The notes under the pieces were generated by a model that worked only from the letters and a program-made list of their open reading frames with translations, was not told the DNA's origin and searched no databases. DNA of 64,000 nucleotides from Brevibacillus sedimenti (GTDB lineage: Bacteria > Bacillota > Bacilli > Brevibacillales > Brevibacillaceae). Shown in pieces: positions 35,589-54,403 of the stretch; the first letter of the stretch is position 1; every line of letters begins with the position of its first letter. The translations under genes and the position numbers were made by a program. The stretch is taken from the NCBI RefSeq assembly GCF_020923495.1, contig NZ_CP064048.1:2605001-2669000 (forward strand), written 5' to 3'.

Positions 35589-35620
35589 AAATCTCCTGCG
35601 TTAAAAAGCGCAGGAGATTT
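35589..35620 (+). terminator. Terminator of acsA (first copy)
   Basis: AAATCTCCTGCG (35589-35600) pairs perfectly with CGCAGGAGATTT (35609-35620). A near-identical hairpin recurs at 35921-35953 on the far side of a repeat element. Confidence 0.8.
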
Positions 35621-35628
35621 CAGGCTTG

Positions 35629-35918
35629 TAGACAAAGTGGTCGCTGTGAGGAGAACACGTTTCCGTCATCCGCTCCGTGCTTTACCCACCGAACACAAGC
35701 TAACGCTCGCGTTCGGCGGGGCCCGTGCTCGCCCAGCAGGGAAGCACGAACTGCACGCTCCTCATCGATTTGCGGGGGATCGCCAAAGCTGCATGGCTAC
35801 ACAGCCTATTCAGAGATGGCGCTCCTTTTTCCCGCAAATCGCTGCTCCGCTCGGTAGGGCTCACAAGTCGCTCTGCCTGGAAACGTTCTTCTCCTTCGTA
35901 AATCGGTTTGTCTTCAGT
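35629..35918. repeat. Divergent large imperfect palindrome (relative of the 42.7/53.9 kb repeats)
   Basis: The element starts TAGACAAAGT and ends TTTGTCTTCAGT. Its outer parts (GGAGAACACGTTTCC near 35650 and GGAAACGTTCTTCTCC near 35879) and inner parts (CGATTTGCGGG and CCCGCAAATCG) are inverted repeats, so it can fold into one long hairpin. The middle differs from the two better-matched copies. No reading frame is supported. It sits between the acsA terminator and a second, near-identical hairpin. Confidence 0.55.
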
Positions 35919-35920
35919 CT

Positions 35921-35953
35921 AAAATCTCCTGTGCAGAAAGCGCAGGAGATTTT
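35921..35953. terminator. Second terminator hairpin, downstream of the repeat
   Basis: AAAATCTCCTG (35921-35931) pairs with CAGGAGATTTT (35943-35953) and T residues follow. It can also terminate the converging czcD-like gene. Confidence 0.75.
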
Positions 35954-41709: not shown

Positions 41710-41823
41710 GCCACCTCTCCCTTCCAATTGCCTGATCCTTGAGATCTCGTAATCTAGTATACCGAAGGAACCGGGCGGATGGTATACTCGGGTAAGAGTG
41801 ACAGACTGACAGGAGGAGAAGAC

Positions 41824-42618
41824 ATGAGCACGGTGGCAAAAGCGATGACCATCGCGGGTTCGGACAGCGGAGGCGGCGCCGGCATCCAGGCGGACCTGAA
41901 GACGTTTCATCAGCTCGGCGTCTACGGCACCAGCGCCATTACGGCGGTGACAGCGCAAAATACGCTGGGAGTGGCAGGGGTCTACCCGCTGCCGACTGAA
42001 GCGGTGACGCAGCAGATCCGCGAAGTCCTGCGTGACATCGGCGCGGACGCGGCCAAGACGGGCATGCTGTTTGACGCCGCGATCATCCGGGCGGTGGCGG
42101 AGGAAGTGCGCGCGTTTCGCCTGGAAAAGCTGGTGGTCGATCCGGTGATGGTCGCCAAGGGCGGCGCCAAGCTGCTTTTGGACGAAGCGATTGAGGCGCT
42201 GAAAACACACCTGCTCCCGCTGGCCGAAGTGGTGACGCCCAACCTGCCGGAAGCAGAGTGCCTGACCGGCATGACGATCCGCACACCAGCCGACATGCGG
42301 GAGGGGGCAAAGGCGATTCACGCCTTGGGCGCACGCCATGTCCTGATGAAAGGCGGACACCTGGACGGCGATGAGATCGTCGACATGCTGTACGACGGAC
42401 AAGCGTTTTACGAAATGGCCCACAGCCGCATTCAAACCCGTCACACCCATGGGACCGGCTGCACCTTTTCCGCCGCCCTGACGGCGGAACTGGCCAAGGG
42501 AAGACCGTTGGTGGAAGCGGTGGAGCGGGCCAACCGGTTCATCGTCCAGGCGATCGCCACCGCACCGCAAATCGGCGGCGGGCACGGCCCGACCAATCAC
42601 TGGGCAGCCATTGAATAA
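41824..42618 (+). CDS. thiD: Hydroxymethylpyrimidine (phosphate) kinase / pyridoxine kinase
   Basis: 264 residues of the ribokinase-fold ThiD/PdxK group. [19 protein letters not shown] near the N terminus, [11 protein letters not shown] and the C-terminal [13 protein letters not shown] anion hole are intact. It phosphorylates HMP and HMP-P in thiamine synthesis; Bacillus paralogues instead phosphorylate pyridoxine, and the two cannot be separated with certainty here. ATG at 41824 has AGGAGGAG upstream. Confidence 0.88.
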
Positions 42619-42628
42619 AACTACGGCA

Positions 42629-42653
42629 AGAGCTCGAGGTCTCCTCGAGCTCT
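42629..42653. terminator. Perfect 11-bp hairpin after thiD
   Basis: AGAGCTCGAGG (42629-42639), loop TCT, CCTCGAGCTCT (42643-42653). No T-run; it abuts the repeat element that begins at about 42660, like the hairpin next to the 35.6 kb copy. Confidence 0.6.
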
Positions 42654-42659
42654 CAGTTT

Positions 42660-42935
42660 GCAGACAAAGTCCGCGGCGTATGGGAGAGCGGGCCCGCTCG
42701 CTCGCTTGACGCCCAGCAAAGAAGCGAATGATGTCCGCTTCAAAACGAGACGCGGGCAGGGGACAAACATCTGGGTATTTCGAGGAAGTGAGACTTGTGT
42801 CCCCTGTTGATTCCCGCGTCTTCGTTTTTCCGCTGAGTCGGTCGTCAAAGGAGCTCGCTTGGCCCATCCCGCCATGCGATGCCCATTGTCTTCCGCTTCG
42901 GTTGATGAATGGGCAGGCCTTTCGGCCTGAAAATC
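42660..42935. repeat. Dispersed palindromic repeat, copy A
   Basis: About 275 bases starting GCAGACAAAGT. The copy at 53935 shares most of it, including long near-identical blocks (for instance CAAACATCTGGGTATTTCGA and GTCGTCAAAGGAGCTCGCTT). It is internally self-complementary: GACGCGGG...AGGGGACA pairs with TGTCCCCT...CCCGCGTC, with further paired arms outside. It lies in a gap between converging genes and has no supported gene. A small GGCC hairpin is at about 42914-42929. Confidence 0.85.
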
Positions 42936-42975
42936 ATTTTTAAAGTCCGTAGTGCGTTCCACCGGCCGCAGCCGA

Positions 42976-53596: not shown

Positions 53597-53938
53597 ATGG
53601 AGCACTACTTGTCAGAGCAGTATCGGGAAGGATTGCAGGCGTTTGGACGAATGATGCCCGAAGCGCTGAACGCTTATAACCGGTTTACCAGCGAGTGTTT
53701 TTCCCCTGGCGAGCTGTCGTCAAAGGAGAAGCACCTGATGGCACTCGGCATCTCGCTGTTCGCCGGAAATGAGCACTGCATTGTCTATCACCTGGAAGCG
53801 GCGCTGTCGGAAGGCGCGAGCGAACGAGAAATTACCGAGACTGTGGCAGTGGCAGGGGCGTTCGGTGGGGGGACGACGCTGTCGCACGGCGTCATATTGA
53901 TCCATGAGGTCATGGAAGAAAAAAAGCTCAGCGTGTAG
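53597..53938 (+). CDS. AhpD-like carboxymuconolactone decarboxylase family protein
   Basis: 113 residues of the CMD/AhpD fold. The normal CxxC is reduced to one Cys: the motif reads NEHCIVYHLEAA, keeping the Glu, Cys and His of the redox/proton relay but not the first Cys. A peroxidase-type CxxC cycle is therefore unlikely. ATG follows AAGGAG. Its TAG stop is the first three bases of the repeat-element start (TAGACAAAGT). Confidence 0.82.
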   Translation: MEHYLSEQYREGLQAFGRMMPEALNAYNRFTSECFSPGELSSKEKHLMALGISLFAGNEHCIVYHLEAALSEGASEREITETVAVAGAFGGGTTLSHGVILIHEVMEEKKLSV

Positions 53939-54245
53939 ACAAAGTACGTGGCGCATGGGTGATCGGGACCGCTCGCTCTCTTGACGACCAGCAAAGAAAG
54001 TAGATAGCGTCCGCTTCAAAACGCGACGCGGGCAGGGGGCAAACATCTGGGTATTTCGAGGAAGTGAGACCTGTACCCCCTGTCTTCCCCGCGTCTTTCG
54101 TTTTTCCGCTGGGCAGGTCGTCAAAGGAGCTCGCTTGGTCCATCACTCCATGCCATGTCCTTTTTCTCCACCTTCGGTTGATCGGTGTGCAGGCCTTGCC
54201 AACCTCCATGCAACCTCCACGATAAAAAAGCACGTTGTCTTCAGT
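53935..54245. repeat. Dispersed palindromic repeat, copy B
   Basis: About 280-310 bases beginning GTAGACAAAGT and matching copy A at 42660 over nearly its whole length, at roughly 80% identity by eye. The 3' end runs on to GTTGTCTTCAGTTTGTG, where copy A differs. Internal GACGCGGGC...CCCGCGTC arms make a long hairpin. No supported gene. A GGAGCAGCCC/GGGGCTGCTC hairpin follows at 54256-54280. Confidence 0.85.
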
Positions 54246-54403
54246 TTGTGCGGAGCAGCCCGACAGGGGCTGCTCTGCTTTTATGTAAAAATATGGGATT
54301 GTCTGCTTGGCTCACTTCTCAGGTATAGCCGGTCAAATGGCACGTACAATGTACTAATCGCTGCACAAGCTGTAGAAATGTCGTGCCGAGAGGAGGAATG
54401 GCA
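54246..54403 (+). other. Leader of the amine-utilisation operon
   Basis: No gene. A terminator-like hairpin (about 54256-54280, GGAGCAGCCC / GGGGCTGCTC, then CTTTT) is followed by about 120 bases containing GTACAATGTAC near 54344-54354, a small palindrome that could be an operator. No clear sigma-A promoter is seen. Confidence 0.4.

Follow-up and report, generated by a model that had tools for sequence, protein, structure and literature searches.

A MITE family of Brevibacillus sedimenti with IS1182-type ends and duplication of whole, predominantly terminator-like target hairpins

Introduction

The closest described systems to the insertions reported here are IS1272 and TnSha1 of staphylococci. 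According to the available portions of two papers on these elements (PMC4923244, PMC5678879), IS1272, a member of the IS1182 family, targets hairpins, several of which are mapped terminators, and deletes the stem-loop wholly or in part without making a target duplication. The second paper also draws, without an example in the portion available, a pathway b in which an extruded stem-loop, joined at its 5' feet, would be duplicated in full (PMC5678879). Bacterial MITEs, as presented in the accessible parts of a review, are short, gene-less, intergenic elements with inverted repeats and tens of copies, and the same parts make no mention of IS1182 or of terminator-hairpin duplication (PMC10969869). 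Our literature search on IS1182-derived MITEs and hairpin duplication returned nothing beyond IS1272/TnSha1, and no documented example of pathway b.

Here, we describe a repeat family of Brevibacillus sedimenti that shares all of these general MITE features. Its probable mover resembles IS1272/TnSha1 in transposase family, in the use of hairpins of unrelated sequence and in insertion in either orientation. In contrast to IS1272/TnSha1, for which the available portions report whole or partial deletion of the stem-loop, the elements studied here duplicate it whole, and while IS1272 carries its own transposase gene, the MITE has no gene. As far as the literature searched extends, an IS1182-type MITE family targeted to intrinsic terminators with duplication of the whole hairpin has not been described.

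Results

The window is the whole stretch of DNA analysed, 64,000 nucleotides long (positions 2605001-2669000 of the 3.93-Mb genome), in which a preliminary description had reported two closely matching copies, A and B, of a dispersed, self-complementary repeat. They align closely over some 270 bp. The 20-base core proposed for searches has exactly two occurrences in the window (42764 and 54040), with none expected by chance. Similarity and pattern searches of the one-contig genome identified both as members of a family with 57 aligned copies on both strands, to which a search for the element's end sequence added about a dozen truncated copies, giving some 60-70 overall; this total, with copies collected place by place, is a lower bound. 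These dispersed copies exclude a single segmental duplication as the origin of the repeats, an explanation that the preliminary description had tied to the finding of only two copies. Its proposed alignment of the ends and search for target duplications were borne out by the terminal inverted repeats and by direct repeats at 37 copies, while the limits it gave for both copies had to be revised (Table 1).

Full copies of the element measure about 326-345 bp, have a palindromic interior, and are gene-less and too short for a transposase. The element is therefore short, multi-copy, dispersed and devoid of a transposase gene, as MITEs are; it starts with CAGCGTGTAGACAAAG and ends with TTTGTCTTCAGTCTG, and these ends are imperfect terminal inverted repeats. 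A shorter form, exemplified by the copy at 3292479 and roughly 249 bp long, ends where the right repeat recurs inside the element. Among 24 other genomes of the genus, traces of the family were found only in the nearest relative, G022, and searches of plasmids and phages found no homologues of the element. We rejected a conserved family across bacteria, as the sole match in the wider set of genomes is a 20-mer shared by chance with unrelated sequence of a Campylobacteraceae MAG.

Table 1. Positions, in window coordinates, of the repeat copies and of the hairpins beside them.
Feature	Position	Strand	Remarks
MITE copy A	42654..42941	+	Left inverted repeat CAGTTTGCAGACAAAG (42654-42669) retained; lacks right end and second hairpin
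Predicted terminator hairpin AGAGCTCGAGG-tct-CCTCGAGCTCT	42629..42653	+	Target of copy A, left copy only; 3' of thiD-like gene (41779-42618)
MITE copy B	53929..54248	+	Both inverted repeats retained: left CAGCGTGTAGACAAAG (53929-53944), right TTGTCTTCAGTTTG (54235-54248)
Predicted terminator hairpin GAGCAGCCC-gaca-GGGGCTGCTC, then T-rich stretch	54253..54275	+	Target of copy B, right copy only
Second MITE family member	35620..35922	-	Hairpin copies at 35590-35619 and 35923-35952

Intact copies are flanked on both sides by the same terminator-like hairpin, which lies flush with the element, is specific to the site and measures 19-38 bp. Copies A and B are both decayed. Copy A begins flush with the hairpin on the thiD side and is cut short near 42941, so that this hairpin and the left end are kept, while the terminal 45 bp or so are gone, together with the second hairpin; copy B retains both ends and the right hairpin and has lost the left one. 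Because each has lost one of its two hairpins, the duplication of the whole hairpin cannot be seen from these two copies. The open reading frame upstream of copy B (53597-53938) stops at a TAG inside the left repeat of the element, whereas its ortholog in G022 reads through three different codons to a stop of its own, indicating that the insertion of copy B replaced the natural 3' end of this gene.

At 37 of the 57 aligned copies a direct repeat could be scored, with lengths of 19-38 bp and a median of 26, leaving about 20 without a scorable duplication; the repeats are perfect at 22 copies and differ at 25 of 952 bases. To reduce circularity, we rebuilt the empty site and then sought the strongest hairpin in its surroundings. 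The centre of the repeat falls within 1 nt of the hairpin dyad in 31 of the 37 rebuilt sites (within 0.5 nt in 25), and both feet of the hairpin lie no more than 2 nt from the repeat ends in 22 of them, as compared with 50 of 5000 random intervals. Where the feet lie off the ends, the stem is mostly extended symmetrically by A-T pairs from the flanking A- and T-tracts. The lengths of hairpin and duplication correlate with a coefficient of 0.69 across 32 sites when estimated without bias, partly because these A-T pairs lengthen the stem, while a coefficient of 0.92 is biased in that the hairpin had been sought inside the duplication; dyad centring is thus a better measure than length correlation. 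Duplication lengths take nearly all values from 19 to 30 bp, with one of 38 bp. The hairpins themselves do not form one sequence family, with a mean identity of 42% even when sliding is allowed and no sequence shared between arms. At 28 of the 37 sites the hairpin is followed by a T-tract or preceded by an A-tract, as opposed to 7% of random intervals, and most targets can therefore be classed, by sequence, as intrinsic terminators. The element inserts in either orientation relative to this tract (T-tract on the right at 22 sites, A-tract on the left at 11).

Twenty insertion sites could be placed in G022 through their flanking sequence. The element is absent from all 20 orthologous loci, each of which is thus an empty site, and also from those of copies A and B. 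A single hairpin was read at 12 of the 20 loci and, as a comparable hairpin, at the sites of A and of B, bringing the count to 14. At site 2132163, for instance, G022 reads ...CCGGACTA GACAGCACCCGTTGCGAGGTGCTGT TTTTG..., while in the window genome the element stands between two copies of that hairpin; at site 1505661, the G022 hairpin varies by paired substitutions that preserve the stem. Sites 62268 and 3421434 gave a pairwise alignment without a clear gap, yet the element is absent from both G022 loci. The presence of one hairpin and no element at these orthologous sites identifies the target duplication as the whole stem-loop of the presumed terminator. Furthermore, the absence of the family sequence from the orthologous loci suggests that a burst of insertions took place in the window lineage once it had diverged from G022.

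We found no intact IS1182 transposase in the window genome, only a truncated remnant consisting of a frameshifted C-terminal part next to glmS (G000:C1:1365000-1370200). It matches NF033551 with a score below the whole-protein cut-off, its right end matches the ends of the MITE and adjoins a hairpin, and an IS21-type istA/istB pair truncates it; G022 carries a 98%-identical remnant beside the same gene, without IS21. Intact elements with shared ends, of about 1.53-1.55 kb, are present in G050 and G044, from sister genera in the wider taxonomic family. Their transposases are of the IS1182 DDE type (NF033551, 491.5 bits in G050 and 467.6 in G044, for a cut-off of 270), and the elements begin with TCAGCGTGTAGACAAA or TCAGCCTGTAGACAAAG, the same left end as in the MITE. 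Perfect hairpin duplications of 20-31 bp flank 10 of 18 IS1182 copies in G050, G044 and G051. In two pairs of IS1182 copies, the absent partner hairpin is located at the neighbouring copy, as expected from recombination between copies.

Hairpin duplications also occur at IS1182 elements on plasmids of other Bacillota (Sutcliffiella, Peribacillus and Enterococcus), where three of six elements have perfect ones (30, 24 and 25 bp) and the other three have no exact flanking repeat of at least 12 bp. Like the MITE, the elements of G050, G044 and these plasmids have the end CAGnnTGTAGACAAA and perfect duplications of whole hairpins; unlike the MITE, they are about 1.5-1.75 kb long, with an intact transposase and an unrelated interior. 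As both features are common to the G050/G044 and the plasmid elements, the ends and the duplication habit go with this branch of IS1182. The portions of the literature covered by our search do not describe targeting by these elements as such. In G050, adjacent IS1182 copies share one target hairpin at their opposite outer ends, as if their flanks had been exchanged by recombination.

Discussion

Our analysis makes it likely that A and B are decayed representatives of a MITE that a hairpin-targeting transposase of the IS1182 type moved in trans, with duplication of the whole hairpin. Mobilisation of the element is strongly supported. As regards the mover, the only IS1182 sequence in the genome is a broken remnant, and we therefore infer from the matching ends that an IS1182 transposase moved the copies in the window genome. 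In the mechanism that we propose, an IS1182-family DDE transposase would bind the inverted repeats of the MITE and move it in trans, picking intrinsic-terminator hairpins through their dyad structure rather than their sequence. Each strand of the target would extrude a stem-loop, the two 3' ends of the element would be joined at the 5' feet of these stem-loops, and gap repair would then leave a complete copy of the hairpin on either side; joining at the 5' feet followed by gap repair would also account for a duplication as long as the hairpin (19-38 bp). Read from the sequences, the present insertions have exactly the form of pathway b in the IS1272 model. Replacement of the hairpin, as by IS1272 itself, is not what these sites display, with the whole hairpin on both sides.

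The effect on the host would be mild, with transcripts on either strand still reaching a complete hairpin and the original T-tract beyond the element. Since both lie beyond the element, termination is probably preserved after insertion, and the transcript would gain some 350 nt of structured sequence.

Most DDE transposons produce a fixed, short target duplication. A duplication whose length varies and follows the hairpin would be hard to obtain for an enzyme that cuts duplex DNA with a fixed stagger, and would follow readily if a cruciform unites the feet, which suggests a cruciform step and recognition of the target as an extruded hairpin. We slightly favour the broader proposal that this subgroup of IS1182 transposases, together with its MITEs, recognises an extruded hairpin of any sequence and attacks both 5' feet, such that the target structure dictates the duplication length and the terminator that is hit is rebuilt each time. 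It is possible, though on balance unlikely, that the same element and enzyme family instead read the terminator as a palindromic duplex, with one subunit per arm and a variable stagger but no cruciform. The dyad symmetry of the targets could be read by a dimer on duplex DNA too; however, a rigid complex would have to span nearly every spacing between 19 and 30 bp, as well as one of 38 bp, with the helical phases that these entail, and the arms that its subunits would contact have no common sequence.

We also considered that the repeat could be a structured RNA family, either a 3'-UTR element or a small RNA, spread or kept for its RNA function. The long hairpin noted in the preliminary description is well founded, as copy A folds at -125.7 kcal/mol (z -5.2) and its other strand at -131.1 kcal/mol (z -7.3), with no shuffled sequence folding as well; in addition, the paired columns of the consensus fold are more conserved than the unpaired ones (0.96 versus 0.84), and the loop is conserved. 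Against this reading, no Rfam family matches the repeat at gathering thresholds, where the only match in the window is a tRNA, and covariation is thin, with 27 compensatory cells among 3508, about 25 of which come from one pair. Moreover, the combination of inverted repeats, duplicated targets and empty sites is that of a transposon, and the repeat is nearly confined to a single genome. We therefore regard an RNA family as very improbable, while the element RNA may still have some function. Hence, where the preliminary description had offered a mobile element or a structured RNA family, the former is supported by the inverted repeats, the target duplications, the empty sites and an autonomous type with the same ends, and the latter, with its thin covariation, is not established.

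The remaining two readings deserve almost no credence. That the hairpins belong to the element, as a longer repeat with its own terminators, would fit their presence on both sides of every intact copy, and is refuted by their variation from site to site and by the single hairpin already present at empty G022 sites. Group IIC introns home to, or insert beside, terminator hairpins, a target preference shared with the MITE, and a retroelement of this kind is refuted by the inverted repeats and the 19-38-bp target duplications, both lacking in these RNA-based elements, as well as by the absence of any group II match in Rfam, the insertion in both orientations relative to the T-tract and the existence of DDE elements with the same ends.

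ISfinder records target duplications of up to about 60 bp for the IS1182 family, so its curators may already have examples of the whole-hairpin pattern. A length-variable duplication that equals the target hairpin would be a direct read-out of structure-guided targeting, and these natural insertions supply the branch of the IS1272 model that was formerly drawn as a possibility. If confirmed, this relationship would make duplication length against designed stem length a simple assay for cruciform sensing by a transposase in living cells, and would explain how such elements can build up to tens of copies while leaving genes and, probably, termination intact. Rebuilt terminators would, if the proposal is true, be re-usable, low-cost landing sites.

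The genome also contains tandem arrangements, a triplet (656358, 656711 and 657065 in genome coordinates) and a pair (891185 and 891549), laid out as hairpin-element-hairpin-element-hairpin. Across the triplet (656358-657341) and the pair (891185-891825), the MITEs are separated by copies of one hairpin. They could have arisen either by repeated insertion at a regenerated target or by unequal recombination.

A second MITE family, about 254-304 bp long and with ends of this kind, also lies between hairpin copies in the window genome and in G022. Its member in the window (35590-35952 with its hairpins) has the hairpin AATCTCCTGCG...CGCAGGAGATT on both sides, and other copies are at 646044, 1685690, 1719951 and 1732442, as well as in G022. 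Finally, we observed a 172-bp derivative (G000:C1:1206495-1206666) that is missing the central palindrome and is still flanked by two copies of its hairpin; it may be either still mobile or the product of a deletion after insertion.
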